This document shows, one piece after another, positions 25,252 to 40,157 of a stretch of DNA of 42,570 bases. The notes beneath the pieces were generated by a model. The model did no database searches. It was not told the DNA's origin and saw nothing but the letters and a program-made list of their open reading frames with translations. A program made the translations under genes and the position numbers. The DNA comes from Planctomyces sp. (lineage in GTDB: Bacteria; Planctomycetota; Planctomycetia; Planctomycetales; Planctomycetaceae). Each line of letters begins with the position of its first letter. Position 1 is the first letter of the stretch. The stretch covers positions 1-42,570 of the forward strand of contig PNLE01000009.1 of NCBI GenBank assembly GCA_013822855.1, given 5' to 3'.

Positions 25252-26631
25252 TCAGTTGCCGGCAGTCCCCTCGGCTTCAACCTTGACAGTGGCAACAGCC
25301 TCCGTCTTGGACTCTTCAGGAACCTCGGAAGCTTCCACGGCCTCTTCAGCAACGACAGTGACAACTGCCGGCTTCGGGCCAGCCAGGCGGGCCAGTTCGT
25401 CCAATCGCCGCTGCTCGCGCTCCTGCGATTGCCGCTCGGCCTTTTCGGTCGCGCGGCGGACATCCTGCTCCTTCTCGATCCGTTCGCTTTCCTTCTCGGC
25501 ATACTCGACGATCACGTCGGCCTGCTCCTGGGTCAGCGAACCCATTTCCATGAGCTGATCGGGCTCAATGACCGACAGATCCTCGAAGCTCAGGAAGCCC
25601 TGCGAGACCAAACCCTCCGCCAGTTCCTCGGTGACACCGGGGATCTGCGAGTAGGCGACCACCGCGAGATCGAGCTGCTGATCGAGTTCTTCGCGGGTCA
25701 TCACGTCGATATCCCAACCGACGAGCTTCGAAGCCAGGCGCACGTTCTGGCCCCGCTTGCCGATCGCCAGCGAGAGCTGATCGTCACGCACCAGCACCAG
25801 AACACGACCCAGCATCGGACAGAGGATCACGTCCTCCACTTCCGCCGGCTGCATCGCATTGGGAACCAGAACCTGCAACGAATCATTCCAGCGAACAACT
25901 TCAATCCGCTCGCCACCGAGCTCTTCGCCCACATTGCGGATGCGGGCACCACGCACACCCACACAGGCACCGACAGGGTCAATGTTGCTGTCGATGCACG
26001 AGACCGCCACCTTCGTGCGGTAACCCGCCTCACGCGCCAGCGACCGGATCTCGATGATCCGCTCGCTCACTTCGGGGATTTCCAGCTCCAGGAGCCGACG
26101 GACAAAGTCCGGATGGGCCCGCGACAGAACCACGCGAACTCGTGGCCCCATCTTCTTCACTTCCAGGATCACCGCCCGGACGCGTTCATTGGGCCGGTGC
26201 GATTCGCCGGGAATCATTTCGCTGCGGGGCAAAATCGCCTCCGCTTTGCCGATATTGACAGTGATCGCACTCCCCTCGTTCCGGGTAATGGTTCCCGAAA
26301 CGATCTGGCTGCGCATCTGGGCGAATTCATCGAACAGCGTGTCGCGTTCGGCTTCGCGGATCTTCTGGATCATGACCTGCTTGGCAGTCTGGGCCGAGAT
26401 GCGACCCAGGATGTCGCCCAATTCATCGCGGTCGATCTCGCGGCCGTTGGTCGTCACCTGAGGCTGACCGCTGGCACGGTCGATGCGGACGTCGATCAAC
26501 TCTTCCTCACCAAAATGCTTGCGCGCGGCCGAAAGAATGGCTTGCTCCACCCCTTCGAAGACAATTTCCTTGTCGATGCTCTTATCGCGATGGATCGAAT
26601 CCACGATCCGCAGCACTTCGTTGCCGTTCAT
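25252..26631 (-). CDS. nusA: Transcription termination/antitermination factor NusA
   Basis: A 459-residue NusA. It shows the N-terminal RNA-polymerase-binding domain (1-125), an S1 domain (about 130-200, [25 protein letters not shown] minus flanks), KH domains with [21 protein letters not shown] and [16 protein letters not shown], and a helix-hairpin-helix domain (about 350-410, [17 protein letters not shown]). The C-terminal 55 residues are rich in Glu, Arg, Ala and Val and are not conserved. It binds elongating polymerase and rRNA antitermination complexes. The ATG at 26631 follows GAGGATAGTA. rimP, often the gene before nusA, is not seen here; instead about 1 kb without a clear gene lies upstream. 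Confidence 0.97.
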
Positions 26632-29392: not shown

Positions 29393-30700
29393 TTATTCGA
29401 CTTCCACCACCACCACGGCGGCCTGCCCCTTGCGGGTCACGTTCATCGAAGCGAACGTCTTCTTCGTCGGGACAACACCTGAATCGGTGACGACGGCGAC
29501 ATCACAACTTGGGTCGGGCGTGTCGTAATTGAGTGTTTTGGGGACAAACCCAGCGCGAAGGGCCGCCAGTGAGGTGACGAGTTCCACCATGCCTGATCCG
29601 GCCGACGAATTCCCCAGAAAGCTCTTCGGGGCCGTCACCGGAATCCGATAGTCGCCGAAGATCTTGTTGACCGCCTGGGCCTCGACCGTGTCGACTTCAC
29701 CCACACCGGCGGCGTGGGCATTGTAGTGGCCGATGTCGGTCGGTTCGAGATTTCCGTTCCGCAAGGCGGCCTTCATCGCCCCCTCGAAAGCGGCTCCATA
29801 ATTCGGCACACCCGACGTATCGACACAGGTCGACGATCCCGTCGCCAGGATGCGACCGTAGATCCTCGCGCCGCGAGCTTCGGCATGGGCCCGTGTCTCG
29901 AGAATGAGTGTTCCCGCCCCTTCGGCGACCACGAAGCCGCTGCGATCTCGATCAAAGGGCCGCGATCGCTTTTCCGGAGCTTCCGGAGTGGTCGCGAGCA
30001 GAGACTCCAGCAATGCCAGATGGAGTGCCCGCAGGGGATGCGAATACGAGCCCGTCGCACCCGTGATCATGATGTCCGCCGCACCGCGCTGCATGATCCG
30101 CACGGCTTCGCCGATCACCACATTGCCGGAGGCTTCGTCCAAAGTCAGGGAGTTGCTGGGACCGCGGGCATCCGAAGCGATGCTGATGTGGCAGGCTGGC
30201 ATGTTGGGAAGATACCGAAGCAGCCACAGCGGCTCCATCTTTCCGTAACCGGCGGCACCCCAGCCTTCGAATTCGATTTCGCCGGTGACATCGCGCATCG
30301 CGACGGCGGGAGGAGCCAATGTCTCCGGCTCGCTGAGCATCAGGTTGGCACCGAACTCGACACCCATGCGATCATGGTCGATCTTTTCCAGATCGAGCTG
30401 GGAATCGGTGAGTGCCATCAGGGCGCTCGCCACTCCCAACTGGATGTCGCGGCACATCAATTTGATGCTGCGGCGGACTTCCTTCAGATAAAGCTTTTTC
30501 GCGGTTTCCTCATTGAAGTCTTCCACTTCGCCGGTCACCGAATCCGGACTGGCGAATCCGGGAAAGAACTTGGATTTGGCTATCCCGTTGGCACCGGCCC
30601 TCAACTGCTCGGTGAAGCGTTCCAATCCAATGCCGATGGGACTGATGATCCCCACGCCCGTGATGACAATATCTTCCGCACTCTTGCTACTTAAGGCCAT
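29393..30700 (-). CDS. Ketosynthase-like protein with altered active site (chain-length-factor-like)
   Basis: A 435-residue thiolase-fold protein homologous to FabF. Aligned with the FabF in this window, the nucleophilic Cys is Glu189 (GPSNSLTLDEASG against GPSSAVATACASA). His329 (YNAHAAG) is kept, but the second His is Asn364 (KSFLGNSSAG against KSQLGHLLGA). The C-terminal GFGG loop is also lost. So it should not carry out normal condensation; it could act like a polyketide chain-length factor, a decarboxylase, or a partner subunit. It lies downstream of rpmF-plsX-fabD-acpP-fabF and the glycine-zipper lipoprotein on the same strand. The ATG at 30700 has only a distant GGAG; ATG 30715 would overlap that site. 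Confidence 0.85.
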   Translation of the reverse strand: MALSSKSAEDIVITGVGIISPIGIGLERFTEQLRAGANGIAKSKFFPGFASPDSVTGEVEDFNEETAKKLYLKEVRRSIKLMCRDIQLGVASALMALTDSQLDLEKIDHDRMGVEFGANLMLSEPETLAPPAVAMRDVTGEIEFEGWGAAGYGKMEPLWLLRYLPNMPACHISIASDARGPSNSLTLDEASGNVVIGEAVRIMQRGAADIMITGATGSYSHPLRALHLALLESLLATTPEAPEKRSRPFDRDRSGFVVAEGAGTLILETRAHAEARGARIYGRILATGSSTCVDTSGVPNYGAAFEGAMKAALRNGNLEPTDIGHYNAHAAGVGEVDTVEAQAVNKIFGDYRIPVTAPKSFLGNSSAGSGMVELVTSLAALRAGFVPKTLNYDTPDPSCDVAVVTDSGVVPTKKTFASMNVTRKGQAAVVVVEVE

Positions 30701-30894
30701 GGCGTGTCGTCTCATCTCCGTCTGACAGGGCCTGGTGAACCGACGACGGCAGCCCAGGAAAAGACAGTGTCACGGTTCGCCTCGAGGCTTCCCCGCTGGC
30801 TGTTTCGGTTGGTCGAATCAGGAAAGAGAGTCGATTCACCGTTGTTTTGCAAGCCAATCCACCAGTGAGGGCCGAATATCCGGCACAACTCAGG

Positions 30895-31446
30895 CTACCG
30901 CCACAAATTGTATCGCTGCATCGCCTGGATCACACGGTCGGAGACTCCCCGGTTTCGCAATTCGATCACCGCATCGGGAGGCAGCCGGAATCGGCCCCCC
31001 CGATCGGCCAGCGTACTGATGACCAGGTCGTCGCTGATTCCCGAATGAATCATGCGAAGGACATCGTGCTCGTTCATCGAACGGCCGTAAATCTGCTGCA
31101 CGGCCTGCTGATTGGCGGCGGCTTCCAGCTCGACTTCCCGAGCGAAGGTCACATCATCCGCATGACCCATCGAAGCACCAAGCGCAGTGCCGAGAGCTGT
31201 TCCGACCACCAAGCCGGTCTTCGGATTTCCCGTGGCGGCACCCACCAGAGTCCCAGCCACCGCTCCAAACGTCCCACCGGCCACTGCACCGTGGCGGGTT
31301 CCATTCATGTGCGTACACCCAGGCAACATTAAGATCGCCACGGCGAGTGCCAGACATCCGGCGAACCGGCGGAAGCACCTATTCAGTGGCCAGGCCAGCA
31401 CCGTGCGAGGCGAGCGTGACCATACTGAAATCTGCGGAAAGTTCAT
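30895..31446 (-). CDS. Glycine-zipper lipoprotein
   Basis: A 183-residue lipoprotein. A basic N-region and hydrophobic core end in the lipobox LMLPGC (Cys44). A glycine-zipper segment (about 52-92: GAVAGGTFGAVAGTLVGAATG and a second GTALGTALGASMG) follows, as in outer-membrane-associated or pore-like lipoproteins of the YMGG/SlyB type. The C-terminal 80 residues are soluble and helical, with EHDVLRMIHSGISDDLVISTL, a pattern seen in short repeat domains of planctomycete lipoproteins. Its place between the two ketosynthase genes suggests an envelope role linked to lipid supply, but this is only context. The ATG at 31446 gives a normal signal peptide. Confidence 0.8.
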   Translation of the reverse strand: MNFPQISVWSRSPRTVLAWPLNRCFRRFAGCLALAVAILMLPGCTHMNGTRHGAVAGGTFGAVAGTLVGAATGNPKTGLVVGTALGTALGASMGHADDVTFAREVELEAAANQQAVQQIYGRSMNEHDVLRMIHSGISDDLVISTLADRGGRFRLPPDAVIELRNRGVSDRVIQAMQRYNLWR

Positions 31447-31623
31447 CCATGAACCTTTCACAACAAAAAACCGGCTGGTTCGGACAGATTTCAGCCAACG
31501 AATTGCCAGCCTGTTGCCACCCGCAGATCGCTCTGGAGGAATTGGGGGAGACTGCGCCGGATAGGCCAAAGTTTGCGACCACCATCACAGTGGCTCACCA
31601 AAACAGCGGCCATCATGGCTGGC

Positions 31624-32862
31624 TTACAATCGCCCCAGCACCAGACATGCGTTGTGGCCGCCAAAACCGAAGCTGTTCGAGAGCATGCACTTCACGGGCA
31701 TCTCACGAGCCACGTTGGGTACATAATCCAGCTTGCAGTCGGGATCCTGGTTGTCGAGGTTGATTGTGGGGGGAACCACACTGTGCAGGCAGGCCATCAC
31801 ACCCACGACGAATTCCACACCCCCACTGGCACCCAGAAGGTGACCCAGCTGGCTCTTGGTGCTGGAAACGCAGACCGTTTTCGAGTCTTCCCCGAAGACG
31901 GTCATGATCGCGTTGGATTCCGCCTTGTCGCCCAAGGGCGTACTCGTGCCGTGGGCGTTGATGTACTGAATTCCCGAGGGATTCAGTTTGGCGTCCCGGA
32001 GCGAGTTGGCCATGGCACGTGCGGCACCCGCACCCTCGGGGTCGGGGGCCGTCATATGGTTGCCATCGGATGACATCCCATAGCCCAGAACCTCGGCCAG
32101 GATCTCGGCACCGCGAGCCTTGGCATGCTCATATTCTTCGAGAACCACGACGCCCGCTCCCTCGGAGAGGACAAAGCCGTCACGATCACGGTCGAATGGC
32201 CGGCTGGCGCATTCGGGGGAATCGAGCCGTGTCGAGAGGGCACCCATGCGGGCGAAGCCCGACAGGCCCATCGGAGTGATGGCCGCTTCGCTGCCACCGG
32301 CGATCATGACATCCGCCATGTCCGATTGGATCATGCGGAAGGCATCGCCGATCGCGTTGGAAGCAGACGCACAGGCGGTCGCCACGGCACTACTGGGGCC
32401 TTTGAGGCCATAGTAGACCGACAGGTTTCCACTGGCGGCGTTCACCATCAGCTTTGGAATCATGAACGGCGAGACACGCGACGGCCCACGGTCGAAGAGC
32501 CGCGCATGCTGCTCCTCAATCTCGTTCAGCCCGCCGATGCCACTGCCGACGATGACGCCACAGCGGTAAGGATCGGTATAGGACTTGAAGTCAATCCCCG
32601 ACTGACGGATCGCCTTGTCTGCAGCCGCCATGGCGAACTGGCAAAAGCGATCCAAACGCTTCATCTCCTTCCCGTCGAAGTGATCTTCAGCGTGGAAATC
32701 CTTGATTTCCCCACCAAAGTTCACTTTGAACTCCGAAGGATCGAAACGCTCCAGTCGAGACACACCGCTCTTGCCGCTGCAGATATTATCCCAGAACTCA
32801 CTGAGTTCGCAGCCCAAGGCGGTGACGACTGACATCCCTGTCACGACGACTCGTCTAGCCAT
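31624..32862 (-). CDS. fabF: 3-oxoacyl-ACP synthase II
   Basis: A 412-residue FabF, which extends acyl-ACP by condensation with malonyl-ACP. The catalytic triad is complete: Cys164 (ATACASA), His304 (NAHGTST) and His341 (LGHLLGA), with the Lys336 in KSQLGH and the GFGG loop near the C-terminus. The ATG at 32862 lies 3 bases after the acpP stop, so the two are translationally linked; this pairing is typical of bacterial fatty-acid operons. Confidence 0.97.
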   Translation of the reverse strand: MARRVVVTGMSVVTALGCELSEFWDNICSGKSGVSRLERFDPSEFKVNFGGEIKDFHAEDHFDGKEMKRLDRFCQFAMAAADKAIRQSGIDFKSYTDPYRCGVIVGSGIGGLNEIEEQHARLFDRGPSRVSPFMIPKLMVNAASGNLSVYYGLKGPSSAVATACASASNAIGDAFRMIQSDMADVMIAGGSEAAITPMGLSGFARMGALSTRLDSPECASRPFDRDRDGFVLSEGAGVVVLEEYEHAKARGAEILAEVLGYGMSSDGNHMTAPDPEGAGAARAMANSLRDAKLNPSGIQYINAHGTSTPLGDKAESNAIMTVFGEDSKTVCVSSTKSQLGHLLGASGGVEFVVGVMACLHSVVPPTINLDNQDPDCKLDYVPNVAREMPVKCMLSNSFGFGGHNACLVLGRL

Positions 32863-32865
32863 CCG

Positions 32866-33102
32866 TCACTGCTTCTCTGAAATGTACTTAACTGCGTCAC
32901 CAACCGTCTTGATCTTTTCGTAGTCTTCGTCGGGAATCTGGATACCAAATTCGTCTTCGAATTCCATGACGAGCTCGACGACGTCCAAGGAATCAGCCTT
33001 CAAGTCGTCGATAAACGAACTCTCTAGCTTCACGTCTTCCTTGGCGATGCTGAGTTGCTCGCTGACAATCGCGATTACTTTTTCTTCTACCGACGACGAC
33101 AC
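32866..33102 (-). CDS. acpP: Acyl carrier protein
   Basis: A 78-residue acidic acyl carrier protein with the phosphopantetheine attachment Ser38 in ADSLD. It carries the growing acyl chain for FabD, FabF and PlsX. The start is GTG 33102, supported by GAGGAGA 5 bases upstream; no ATG is available in frame before the conserved region. Length and sequence ([32 protein letters not shown]) are typical. Confidence 0.97.
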
Positions 33103-33300: not shown

Positions 33301-34215
33301 TTAAGCCACGCTGTCGTTCACTGTTTCACAGGAGGCCTTCCGATCAATTCGTTTCAAAAGCCCCTTAAGCACCTTACCCGGTCCGATCTCATAAAACGAA
33401 TCCACCCCGTCGGCGAGTAAATTTCTTACCGACTTTTCCCACATCACCGGCTCCGTCACCTGCTGGATTAACAGTCTCATCAGCTCGGCTGGATCGGAAT
33501 GGGACATCGCATCGACATTCGACAACACGGGAATCCTCGGAGCCTTGAGCTCCACCGAGTTCAGGACTTCCGCCAACTGCTCGCAGGCCGATGCCATGAG
33601 CGGTGTATGAAACGCTCCGGCCACCGACAAGGGAATCGGCCGCCCGCCAGCGGCTTCGATCCGCTCTGCCGCCTTCGCACAGGCGGTCTTCTCACCGGAA
33701 AGAACCGTGTTTCCCGGGCAAAGATAATTGGCGATCCAGATCCGGCCCGTGTCTTGCGACTCCGCGACCACGGTCTCGACTTGCGCTGGCTCCAACAGCA
33801 GCGCACTGACCATACCCGAAGGGATCGCATCGGCGGCAGCCTGCATCGCCCGTCCGCGAACAGCGACAACCCTCAAGCCATCTTCAAACGACATCGCCCC
33901 CGCAAAGACTAGGGCCGTGTACTCCCCGAGGCTCAAACCGGCACATGCCTCGCATGACTCCAGGAGTGCGGGATTGTCGGTCTTGAGCGACTCTAATGCC
34001 GCCAGACTGGCCACAAACAAAGCCGGTTGGCTGACAATTGTGCTGTCCAACCGCTCCTGCGGCCCGCTCTCGCAAACCACCAGCAAGTCAAAGCCCAGAA
34101 TCTCGCTGGCCCGATCAAATAGCGCCCGAGCCGCTGGATACTTCGCGCAGAGGCCGACACCCATGCCGAGATGCTGGGCTCCCTGCCCCGGAAATAAGAA
34201 TGCGACTTTCGCCAA
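33301..34215 (-). CDS. fabD: Malonyl-CoA:ACP transacylase
   Basis: A 304-residue FabD, transferring malonyl from CoA to ACP. The nucleophile is Ser95 in GLSLGEY, with Arg120 in AVRGRAMQ and His203 in AGAFHT completing the active site; the oxyanion Gln11 lies in FPGQGAQ. The start is TTG 34215 (MAKVAFLFPGQG); GAGGGAAGG lies about 10 bases upstream. Gaps of 221 bp before and 198 bp after are longer than usual in this operon and hold no gene; fabG normally sits between fabD and acpP. Confidence 0.96.
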   Translation of the reverse strand: MAKVAFLFPGQGAQHLGMGVGLCAKYPAARALFDRASEILGFDLLVVCESGPQERLDSTIVSQPALFVASLAALESLKTDNPALLESCEACAGLSLGEYTALVFAGAMSFEDGLRVVAVRGRAMQAAADAIPSGMVSALLLEPAQVETVVAESQDTGRIWIANYLCPGNTVLSGEKTACAKAAERIEAAGGRPIPLSVAGAFHTPLMASACEQLAEVLNSVELKAPRIPVLSNVDAMSHSDPAELMRLLIQQVTEPVMWEKSVRNLLADGVDSFYEIGPGKVLKGLLKRIDRKASCETVNDSVA

Positions 34216-34436: not shown

Positions 34437-35459
34437 TTACGCGGAACCGACGAGTTGGAGATCGGCCTCGAGCTCATCACAGATCTGCCCGTTGATGCCC
34501 CGAGCCTGCAAGTCGGAAGCGAGCTTGAGCGCATTGAAGATCGAATGGCCGTTGCTCGAACCGTGGCAGATGATGCAGTTGCCATCGACACCCAACAGCG
34601 GAGCTCCGCCCGACTCATGGTAGACGTACTTGCGTTCCAGAGCCTGTAGGGCTTCAATCGCTTTCCCCCGCTCGGCATCCAAAGCGGAAACCACAGCTTT
34701 GCCCACGGTCTTGAACAACATGTCGACGATCCCCTCGCTCGATTTGAGGATCACGTTGCCGACAAAGCCCTCGCAGATCACGACGTCCGTGCGGCCTTCG
34801 TATAGGTCGCGGCCTTCAACATTGCCGACATAGTTGTAGTTGAGAATCGCCCGGCTCTTGGCGTACAGCTCCTGGGCCTCGCGAACCAAATCGTTCCCCT
34901 TGCCGTCCTCGCTCCCGATGTTCATCAGGCCGACGGAAGGCCTCTCGACTCCCAGCATGTTGCGGGCGTAGATCGCCCCCATGATACCGTACTGGAGAAG
35001 GTGCTCGGGCCGGGCGGCGGGATTGGCTCCCACATCCATCAGCACGCAACGGCCGCGCATGGTGGGAAGCACCACGGCGATGCCAGGCCGGCGGACATTC
35101 TTCAAAAAGAGGCGGGTCCGCAGACCTGCGGCCACAACAGCACCGGTATGACCGGCACTGACGACCGCATCGACACTCTTGGCAGCCATGAGCTGCCAGC
35201 AGACCGAGAGCGAGCAATTCGGCTTTTTACGCAGAGCCTCGGTCGGCTTTTCATCCATCCCGACATAACCATCGGCCGCATGGACAGTGAGACGGCGACC
35301 GAATTCGGGATGAGATTGCACCTCGCTTGCCAGCAAAGGTGCGTCACCAACCAGCACCACCTCAATGCCGGGAAGAGCCTCGATCGCCTTGATCGCTCCC
35401 TCGACGTTGGGTCCGGGAAACACGTCCCCACCCATCGCGTCCAATGCGACTCTCGCCAC
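34437..35459 (-). CDS. plsX: Phosphate acyltransferase PlsX
   Basis: A 340-residue PlsX, making acyl-phosphate from acyl-ACP for phospholipid synthesis. Typical landmarks are ALDAMGGDVFPGPNVEGA at the N-terminus, VSAGHTGAVVAAG, VLMDVGANPAARPEHLLQYG, GLMNIGSEDGKGN and DVVICEGFVGNVILKSSEG. The start is GTG 35459, with AAGGAT 6 bases upstream. It follows rpmF after 62 bp, the classic rpmF-plsX arrangement. Confidence 0.97.
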   Translation of the reverse strand: MARVALDAMGGDVFPGPNVEGAIKAIEALPGIEVVLVGDAPLLASEVQSHPEFGRRLTVHAADGYVGMDEKPTEALRKKPNCSLSVCWQLMAAKSVDAVVSAGHTGAVVAAGLRTRLFLKNVRRPGIAVVLPTMRGRCVLMDVGANPAARPEHLLQYGIMGAIYARNMLGVERPSVGLMNIGSEDGKGNDLVREAQELYAKSRAILNYNYVGNVEGRDLYEGRTDVVICEGFVGNVILKSSEGIVDMLFKTVGKAVVSALDAERGKAIEALQALERKYVYHESGGAPLLGVDGNCIICHGSSNGHSIFNALKLASDLQARGINGQICDELEADLQLVGSA

Positions 35460-35858: not shown

Positions 35859-35996
35859 GCAACGCGGTTTTGAAGCTCTTTGCCACCACTATCACAGTCC
35901 ATAAGGACACTTACCTGCGACGACAATCGGTATAAATTCCCAGGGCATTCCGCGTCGAAAATTTGCGAACCCATTTTTCTAACGAACGTTCCCACC

Positions 35997-38900
35997 ATGA
36001 CATTGCGGCCAACACAGACTTCAGACATTGCCCCAGAGCCGGGCATTCCGAGTGCGGCAAACGATTCGAGTACTGCCCGGTGGCAATTCTGGATCGATGT
36101 GGGAGGCACCTTCGCGGACGTCATCGCCCAGTCGCCGACGTGTCAGCGGCATTTCGCAAAAACGCTCAGTTCCGGGAGAGTGAAGGGCTTTCGCGATGCC
36201 GTCGAAACGATCCCATCGAACACCACTTCCCAAGGTCAATGGTGCGATCACTCCCTGGGCGAATATCCCACCGGCTTTTTCGTCAACTACACCTGCCTGT
36301 TTCATGACGCCAAGGGCCAGCTTCAAGAGGCTCTGATCACCTCCCACGAACAAGTCACCTCTCCCGCCCCTGCCGAGTCGAATTCCAGCCACACGCACTT
36401 CGCACGCTTCACCATCTGCGAGACTGATCGTTCGATCGATCCCGGAAAACTCAGGGTTCCCCTTGCAGGAAAATCGTATGAACTGACTGCTCACGAGGAA
36501 GCCGCCTTTCTCGGCGTGCGACAAATTCTGGGGCTTCCCTTATCGCAGCCCATTCCGGAAATCTCCTTGTCGCTCGGCACGACACGTGGCACCAACGCTC
36601 TCCTCACCCGCACGGGGGCAAGAACGGCCCTGCTCACCACCCTTGGCTTTGGCGACTTACCACGGATCGGATCCCAGGAACGGCCCCACCTGTTCGCGCT
36701 CCAGATCCATAAGCCCCAGCCACTCTTTTGCGAAGTGGTCGAAATCGACGAACGACTCTCGGCTCAGGGAGTGGCTCTCCGCATGCCGGATCCCGTGGCA
36801 ATCCGCCGACAGTTGGAAAATCTGCGAGATCGGGGGATCGAAGCGATCGCTGTCTCGTTCCTCCATGCTTGGAAACATCCCCAACACGAACAATTCGTTG
36901 CCCAGATCGCGAAGGAGGTCGGTTTCAAGGAAGTCTGCACCTCCCATGAGACGGCTCCCACTCCCCGGTTGGTTCCCCGCACCGAAACCACCGTGCTCGA
37001 TGCCTTCCTCACCCCCGTGCTCCGATCCTATCTGGACAGCCTCACCAACACTGTCGGCAGTACCCATGTCCGCCTGATGACCAGTGCCGGCACCTTGGTC
37101 AAAGCCACCGATTTTCGGGGCAGTGACAGCGTACTCAGCGGACCGGCGGGGGGGGTGATCGGCTTCGCCCGCGCGGCCGAGGCGGCGGGGTTCTCGAAAG
37201 CCATCGGCCTCGACATGGGTGGAACCAGCACCGATGTCGCCCATTACGCGGGCCAGTTCATGCACGAATTCGAAGGTCAGAAGGCGGGCGTCAAACTGAT
37301 CGGTGATCGCCTCGCCATCGAGACCGTCGCGGCGGGGGGCGGCAGCATTTGCGATGTGGTTGGCAGACAGTTGGTCGTCGGACCCAAGAGTGCCGGGGCC
37401 ACCCCCGGCCCCGCCTGTTATGGCCAGGGCGGCCCCCTCACCATCACGGATTGCAATGTCCGGTTGGGCCGGATCGACGCGGATCGTTTCCCCTTCCCAC
37501 TGGATCACGAAGCCATCGAGCGGCGGCTGAACGAGGCCTTCCTCACATTCCAAAAATCCGTCGGCTCAGCATCCAGCGGCCTGCGGGCCATCACCTCGAT
37601 CGAGGAACTGGCCGCCGGCTTCATCGAGATCGCCAACGCCACCATGGCCCGCGCGATCCGCAAGATCTCCATCCAGAAGGGGCTTGTTCCGGAAGACTAT
37701 CTGCTGGTCGCCTTCGGTGGGGCCGCCGCCCAACACGCCTGCGGCATCGCGCGGCTGCTCGACATCCCCCGGATCCTCATCCATCCCCTTGCCGCCCTGC
37801 TCTGCGCCTACGGACTCAGCCAGGCGGATCTTGTCAAACGGGGCGAAAAGTCGATCTATCGGCTACTCGATGCGAACGGAAACACCTCGAACGATCGAGG
37901 GTCCGCTGCCGCTGCCGAATCCATCACCATGCAAGAACTCACCGGGATTGTCTCGAACCTGTCCAACGAATTGAGGGAACAGATCGAGCAGGAACGCAGT
38001 GCCGACCAGATGCCAGGCACGCCCCGCTTCGACGTTGCCCTGAGGTACTTCGGTTCGGAATCGGTGCTGGACGTCCCCTGGAATTCAAGCCAGGAACATG
38101 ACTCGGCGGAGGAACTGGCCCAGCAGTTTCGACAACTGCATCAATCACGATACGGCTACGATCGGGCCAACGCACCGCTGGAAGTCGTCGCTGTCCGAGG
38201 CGAACTCTCCGCTGTGCACAAGCGGCCTCAAGCAGCTCAAGAGACAGCCCCATCATCCCCTACTCAACAAACCGTCACGGCCGACGAAATATCCCGGCAG
38301 TGGCGTAACAACAAGTGGGGAGTCGCACCGCGATATCGCCGCGATCAGCTCTCGGTGGGCGACACCATCTCCGGCCCGGCCCTCATCTCCGATCCGACGA
38401 CCACCACCGTTGTCGACGCCGACTTCACCGCCCAACTTCTTCCCGGCGGCGAACTCCTGCTCACCAGGAAGAAGGGCACAACATGTGTCGATCCTTACGC
38501 GGAAGAGCCCCACTCCAGTAATGATCCCACGAAGACCTTGCTGTCGCCGGTCGAGATCGAGGTCTTCCACCAGCGTCTGGCCTCGATCGCCGATGAAATG
38601 GGGATCAAGCTCCAGCAGACGGCCCAGTCGACCAACGTCAAGGAGCGTCTCGACTACAGCTGCGCCATCTTTTCCCGTGCGGGCGAACTCGTGGTCAATG
38701 CTCCGCATGTTCCCGTCCATCTGGGAGCGATGAGCGAGTCGATCAAGTCGATCCTCGCGGCTTATCCTCAGATGGAGCCGGGGGATGTCTTCCTCACCAA
38801 CGACCCCTTCAGCGGTGGCTCCCATCTACCCGATCTCACGGTCGTCAGTCCGGTCTTCATCGAGGACAACGACCCGGGGCGTTCGCCGAGACTTTGCGCG

Positions 38901-40157
38901 TTTGTGGCGAATCGCGCCCACCACGCCGAGATTGGCGGCATCGTTCCCGGCAGCATGCCCCCCTTCTCGAAGCGGCTGGCGGATGAAGGGATCCTGCTCA
39001 AAAATCTGCGAATCGTGCACCACGGCCTCTTCGACGAAGCGGGCCTGCGCGCGAAGTTCACAGCCCCTCCCCACCCTTCCCGCATGCCCGATCAGAACAT
39101 CGCCGACCTGATCGCCCAGATGGCCTCGAACACCCGGGGAGCGGAGCTGGTGGCCGCATTCGTTCGCGAGCAGTCGCCGACCCGGTTCGAAGCCTGTCTC
39201 GATCAGTTGAAGCAAATCGCCGCCACGATGATCCGCCACATGCTCTCCACCTTTCCAGAGAGCGAACATTCGTTCGTCGATCACCTCGACGATGGCTCCC
39301 CCATTCGAGTCACCTCCCGCATCGTTCATGAACCGGCCACAAGCGAAGGCCCGCCGCTCATCCGCTGCCAGCTCGACTTCACCGGAACGGCTCCAGTTCT
39401 GGCGACCAACCTTAACGCGAATCGCGCGATCGTTACCGCCTGTGTGATGTATGTCCTCCGGTCACTGCTGGAGTGGCACAACCCCGACCATTCCCATACC
39501 CACTTCCCGCTCAACAGTGGTGTCCTCGATCCCATCGATCTCCTCCTCCCCGAATGTCTGCTCAATCCACCCGCATACGCCGATCCGCTGCAATCGGCGG
39601 CTGTCGTCGGGGGGAATGTGGAAACCTCTCAGCGGGTGGTCGATGTGCTGCTGGGACTGTTCGGCGTGGCGGCCGCCAGCCAAGGGACGATGAACAACCT
39701 TACCTTCGGCAACAAGCGGTTCGGCTACTACGAGACGATCTGCGGTGGCGTGGGGGCCACCTCCCGCGGCCCCGGTGCCGACGCTGTCCATTCCCACATG
39801 ACGAACACCCGGCTCACCGACCCGGAGATCCTCGAGCAGCGCTATCCCCTCCGCGTCCGGCGTTTCGAGATTCGAGAGGGATCCGGCGGTGAAGGTCAAC
39901 ATCGCGGCGGGCATGGCGTTTCGCGCGAGATCGAATTCTTGGAGACGCTTTCACTCTCGATCCTCTCCGAACGTCGCGGTTCCTACCGGCCCTACGGCGT
40001 AGCGGGTGGCGGTGCGGGAGCCACCGGCCAGAACCTGCTGACCAAAGCGGCGACGGGGGAAGTGATCGATCTGGGGGGCAAGGCTTCGATCCACGTCCAG
40101 CCGGGCGACATCGTCACCATCCATACCCCCGGCGGCGGTGGATGGGGCGCAGTCTGA
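35997..40157 (+). CDS. 5-oxoprolinase-type HyuA-HyuB fusion protein
   Basis: A 1386-residue protein joining the two halves of the hydantoinase/oxoprolinase family. The HyuA-like part (about 20-830) starts [11 protein letters not shown] and has [47 protein letters not shown] and AVAAGGGSI-type motifs. The HyuB-like part (about 850-1386) has the [31 protein letters not shown] and GGGGWG-type endings. Full fusion is the layout of ATP-dependent 5-oxoprolinase (5-oxoproline to glutamate), but related hydantoinases or acetophenone carboxylases cannot be excluded. About 90 residues near 80-170 separate the first two HyuA motifs. ATG 35997 has no good ribosome-binding site; a TATAAA at 35931-35936 may be its -10 box. 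It stands as a single gene. Confidence 0.9.

Follow-up and report, generated by a model that had tools for sequence, protein, structure and literature searches.

A ketosynthase-like protein with Glu in place of the catalytic Cys in Planctomyces, a candidate chain-length-factor-like subunit

The 42,570 nucleotides of Planctomyces sp. contig PNLE01000009.1 analyzed here (the window) include a fatty acid synthesis cluster with two ketosynthase-like genes, one of which codes for a protein without the nucleophilic Cys. This protein, E-KS1, raises the question of what such a ketosynthase does and with which partner, if any. The features relevant to this question are as follows:

25252–26631, minus strand: NusA; its gene and infB repeatedly flank E-KS1 in two families
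29393–30700, minus strand: E-KS1, Cys-less ketosynthase-like protein of 435 aa (Glu189, His329, Lys359, Asn364, Glu373)
30895–31569, minus strand: glycine-zipper lipoprotein-like protein, between fabF and E-KS1
31624–32862, minus strand: FabF, a normal Cys-His-His ketosynthase and candidate partner (NCBIfam fabF, 616 bits; cut-off 494)
32866–33102, minus strand: AcpP, acyl carrier protein (PF00550)
33301–34215, minus strand: FabD, malonyl transacylase (PF00698)
34437–35459, minus strand: PlsX (PF02504)

The E-KS1 reading frame is open to 30715 (29393–30715, minus strand, 440 aa) and an internal Met at 30700 gives the 435 aa product. The nearest Cys ketosynthase gene in this genome is that of FabF, with one gene between them. 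The product of that intervening gene, which has 62% identity in Planctopirus limnophila, is probably a mere neighbour outside the system. The gene is fast-evolving, and similar genes are present in some family members only. At positions 35880–40157 there is also a 1425-aa open reading frame that by eye resembles a fusion of hydantoinase/5-oxoprolinase A and B.

Active-site residues of E-KS1 and their conservation

E-KS1 is 32% identical to the FabF of the window, and PF00109 (7e-29) and PF02801 (2e-19) together span its full length. Alignments with the window FabF, E. coli FabF and a set of more than 100 sequences match Glu189 to E. coli FabF Cys163, His329 to His303, Lys359 to Lys335, Asn364 to His340 and Glu373 to Glu349. 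Where FabF has NSFGFGGHNA, E-KS1 has MNVTRKGQAA, and the GFGG gate, which belongs to loop 1 of FabF (PMC7138838), is gone. With neither the Cys-His-His triad nor this gate, and with an NCBIfam fabF score of 256 bits where the cut-off is 494, E-KS1 does not qualify as a FabF / KAS II enzyme. An AlphaFold2 model built on an alignment of 43 relatives (mean pLDDT 93.1, pTM 0.92) has a complete ketosynthase fold, and as a single chain it superimposes on FabF (1j3n; Z 58.9, 1.7 Å over 400 residues) about equally well as on the actinorhodin chain-length factor (CLF; 1tqy_B; Z 57.2, 1.8 Å). The first-pass annotation had described Glu for the Cys, Asn for the second His, loss of the GFGG loop and retention of the overall fold, and the alignments, Pfam matches and model all agree with it.

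The acidic residue is widely conserved. Position 189 is acidic in all 30 orthologues first read from 4-kb loci of the closest genomes (25 Glu, 5 Asp), which excludes a local mutation or sequencing error as the cause of Glu189; one orthologue added later has Gly. In the class-wide alignment (A2, n = 43) there are 29 Glu, 12 Asp, 1 Gly and 1 Ser (acidic in 41), and across the larger clade to which E-KS1 belongs (the E-KS clade, n = 53) 34 Glu, 14 Asp, 2 Asn, 2 Ser and 1 Gly (acidic in 48). Cys is present at this position in none of the 53, and a normal Cys-His-His triad in none of the orthologous group. On the tree the site has undergone at least 12 changes among Cys, Glu, Asp and other residues and only 4 among the classes Cys, acid and other, and therefore Glu and Asp have exchanged with the charge retained; judged by the alignment, Asp is as acceptable here as Glu. 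A Cys codon cannot become one for Glu or Asp in a single step, which would disfavour simple drift. Two families depart from the usual set. In family f9 (L122–L124) the Glu stays at the Cys site and the Lys and the second His are gone, and in family f37 (L116, L118, L119) Asn or Ser is at the Cys site.

The remainder of the active site drifts. His329, which had been described as retained, is present in E-KS1 itself and is not kept throughout: it is His in 42 of the 53 clade members, and Asn in 5 of the 30 orthologues first read. Lys359 is conserved in 44 of 53, and the second His position, occupied by N, H, S, Q, T or E, is His in only 12. The gene as a whole evolves faster than its neighbour fabF (77% versus 96% identity within the genus), with far fewer amino acid than silent changes (pN 0.15, pS 0.72); dN is 0.167 and dS, at about 2.5, is saturated, which precludes a clean dN/dS ratio.

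Distribution, phylogeny and a second fab-like operon

Searches for relatives covered Planctomycetota genomes. E-KS1 orthologues are present in 34 of the 37 listed genomes of the window's family and as a fragment at a contig edge in one more; the two without one are 79–86% complete. In the tree, two other families also hold members of the orthologous E-KS1 clade. A search of genome contigs gave a single locus, 77% identical, in a Planctomyces metagenome-assembled genome, and tblastn of plasmid records found no close relative, the matches listed being only FabF-type with about 35% identity or less. The linkage with fabD-acpP-fabF that had been taken to be conserved holds in only part of the family: among the roughly 23 genomes with sufficient flanking sequence, 15 have fabF next to E-KS1 on the same strand and seven have no fabF nearby. 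The other recurrent flank is nusA/infB, including in family f5. E-KS1 is one member of a family spread across the phylum, and the window genome has a second Cys-less ketosynthase of this family, E-KS2 (G000:C205:2198-3460; L041), which has the Glu together with both His residues (44% identity). E-KS2 adjoins the flagellar gene fliD in three genomes (L041, L042, L045), for no obvious reason.

The phylogeny (IQ-TREE, quick search, 109 proteins, SH-aLRT support) places the 53 E-KS sequences in one clade (99) whose sister is a small clade that keeps Cys-His-His (97). Together these are sister to KS3 (98–99), a Cys-His-His ketosynthase present in 58 of 59 relatives and encoded on another contig of the window genome (G000:C116), and FabF is separate (99). 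On this phylogeny, E-KS1 is not a FabF offshoot. A comparison with KS-alpha, KS-beta/CLF and FabF had been suggested, and E-KS1 falls beside KS3 and apart from FabF and from the actinorhodin KS-alpha and CLF, both of which are outside the E-KS clade; the place of the latter, the sole CLF included, is unsure because of its long branch.

KS3 is encoded in an operon with the order FabZ-FabG-ACP-FabZ-EKS-KS3-alpha/beta hydrolase-GH3, assigned from Pfam and synteny (e.g. L058:3119-11239; matching loci L056, L057, L059, L060 and L081), to which a DUF1571 gene is sometimes added. Six genomes at class level, and other families in the phylum as well, have the acid-type gene immediately upstream of KS3. 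The window's family retains the operon without this gene (L065, L067, L068, L070–L073), and the two acid-type copies are elsewhere, although some genomes of the family have an additional E-KS/KS3-like pair (L158, L159). In family f20 (L112–L114, L161) a loop-bearing E-KS-like gene lies beside a KS3-like gene with Cys-His-His in both, an apparent evolutionary intermediate.

There is information on the requirement for these genes in P. limnophila (G001). A TraDIS screen reports a five-member ketosynthase paralogue group in which all are essential, with a grouping that demands a length ratio of at least 60% and a bit-score ratio of 0.1 (PMC10632474); at that length ratio megasynthases would drop out of the group. 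The stand-alone ketosynthases of P. limnophila also number exactly five, namely FabF, KS3, the E-KS1 orthologue (G001:C1:3333189-3334493), E-KS2 and a further one, and by our recomputation all pass the 0.1 bit-score ratio with each other. Since the counts match, E-KS1 is probably a member of that group and thus probably essential. The phylum-wide operon represents a second type II system for fatty acids or polyketides, so far uncharacterised and, via KS3, probably essential in P. limnophila. Because the operon is universal in the class and essentiality is probable, we suggest that the product of E-KS1 and KS3 would be a lipid with a structural role and not a dispensable metabolite.

The interface loop and the function of E-KS1

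The best-kept stretch of the E-KS proteins is not their own active site. It is P157–H171, PLWLL(K/R)YLPNM..H, in which P157, L164, P165, N166, M167 and H171 are each present in all 53 and W159 in 52. In ketosynthase dimers the equivalent loop crosses the two-fold axis toward the acyl channel of the partner, and W159 aligns with FabF Phe133, which we take to extend into the acyl pocket of the partner subunit. KS3 (n = 24) has the catalytic Cys, His, Lys, His and Glu in all 24 sequences and an acidic loop, with Glu at position 160 in 21, at 162 in 19 and at 164 in 21. Column counts show the FabF loop, unlike that of KS3, to be fully FabF-like with no reciprocal change. The reciprocal pattern of E-KS and KS3 fits an obligate heterodimer in which a silent subunit would lend its loop. 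The Cys-keeping sister clade already bears the E-KS-type loop, and therefore the loop was specialised first and the Cys lost later.

We think it somewhat probable that E-KS1 is a non-condensing KS-beta (chain-length-factor-like) subunit that pairs with a Cys ketosynthase. The Cys subunit of the pair would do the condensation, and E-KS1 would lend its hydrophobic PLWLL-YLPNM loop across the dimer interface, where it may shape or limit the acyl channel of the partner, and would present a surface for ACP docking. With a carboxylate where the Cys once was, acyl transfer to E-KS1 would be precluded; this carboxylate would be held by selection, perhaps because it neutralises Lys359 or excludes substrate. 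As the partner in this presumed heterodimer, KS3 is most likely and the neighbouring FabF is less likely.

That FabF would be the specific partner, with E-KS1 adjusting which chain lengths the housekeeping enzyme makes or which ACP it uses, is close to what the first-pass annotation proposed. Its general part, that E-KS1 partners a Cys ketosynthase, is plausible, although KS3 is at least as good a candidate as FabF because of the place of E-KS1 beside KS3 in the tree. The same-strand adjacency in 15 family genomes favours FabF, as does the highest partial tree-distance correlation of E-KS1 (17 genomes; 0.37 with FabF, 0.16 with KS3), although the ranges of these values are wide and overlapping, and the correlations therefore point to no one partner. 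Given the seven family genomes in which fabF is not nearby, the FabF loop without reciprocal change and the sister relationship to KS3, we regard this pairing as unlikely. A homodimeric E-KS1 without a ketosynthase partner, binding acyl-ACP or serving a regulatory role, such as that of an acyl-ACP sensor near nusA-infB and the fab genes, is very unlikely; it would accommodate the stand-alone gene and two divergent copies in the window's family, the fast evolution relative to FabF and the recurrent position beside nusA-infB, but in other families the gene is fixed next to that of a Cys ketosynthase within a biosynthetic operon, and conservation is strongest in the interface loop.

The strict retention of the carboxylate could equally reflect a catalytic task. 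KSQ malonyl-ACP decarboxylases have Gln at the Cys position and keep both His residues, and E-KS1, in contrast, has Glu189 and Asn364. E-KS1 might nonetheless convert malonyl-ACP to an acetyl-ACP primer, with Glu in the role of the KSQ Gln and His329 and Asn364 acting like the His-Asn of FabH. In favour of this are the retention of His329 and Lys359 in most members, the position of the gene next to fabD-acpP-fabF and the persistence of an acid at the Cys site through its many residue changes; the Asn also recalls the Cys-His-Asn triad of priming ketosynthases (PMC12664062). However, a catalytic pair would hardly be expected to lose His329 in 11 of 53 members and to vary so much at the second position, the malonyl carboxylate should be repelled by another carboxylate, and a true FabH is present in the window genome and, over its cut-off, in 56 of 59 relatives, so that priming has no need of E-KS1. 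We consider decarboxylation quite unlikely, and replacement of FabH was rejected as a main idea because FabH is present.

Relationship to known systems and implications

As a chain-length-factor-like subunit E-KS1 can be compared with several described proteins. It shares with FabF / KAS II the fold, the His/Lys/Glu scaffold and a nearby ACP gene, and differs in the absence of the Cys, the second His and the gate. The actinorhodin CLF (KS-beta, 1tqy chain B) is likewise a ketosynthase fold without Cys that keeps the Lys aligned with K359, and in other families the genes of E-KS members, like those of CLFs, adjoin one for a Cys ketosynthase and are accompanied by ACP and FabG-like genes. The differences are that the CLF has Gln161 rather than Glu or Asp, a contrast with actinobacterial CLFs that was correctly anticipated, Asp for the first His and Arg at the second, and that it is separate in the tree; E-KS1, moreover, is not encoded beside its probable partner and is probably essential. 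The ApeO-ApeC aryl polyene KS-CLF likewise combines a ketosynthase with an inactive subunit, encoded in a cluster with FabG, FabZ and ACP (PMC8358021), although ApeC is about half the size, with one thiolase fold, whereas E-KS1 is full length with both halves.

KS-CLF-like pairs in Planctomycetes have been catalogued in bulk, and many non-actinobacterial pairs typed as FAS-FAS (PMC10132072), so that such pairing in Planctomycetes is not new. In passages of that paper we found no acid-at-Cys subfamily, stand-alone copies or essentiality, and we found neither Glu/Asp-type CLFs nor a planctomycete account of the second fab-like operon in the open-access literature, the coverage of which is incomplete and leaves supplements aside. 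Relative to the literature found, what is new here is the acid-at-Cys subfamily, its separate origin, the escape from the operon and the probable essentiality. Tentatively, and with some doubt, the planctomycete pair may be independent of the actinobacterial KS-CLF, with the loop arising first and the change from Cys to carboxylate following, and in one family the silent subunit may have been duplicated and left the operon to give two separate, essential and exchangeable subunits, which would work with either one or two Cys ketosynthases and control an essential lipid.

We note as a caution that the annotation 3-oxoacyl-ACP synthase 2 may be attached to non-condensing proteins. The evolution of silent partners has so far been studied mainly in actinobacterial CLFs, and the intermediates here (Cys kept with the loop specialised; Asn or Asp at the site) would provide a stepwise record of a subunit turning into a silent partner. 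An apparently essential nucleophile-less ketosynthase in a genetically tractable planctomycete would point to an uncharacterised lipid or polyketide pathway that is required for life in the class.
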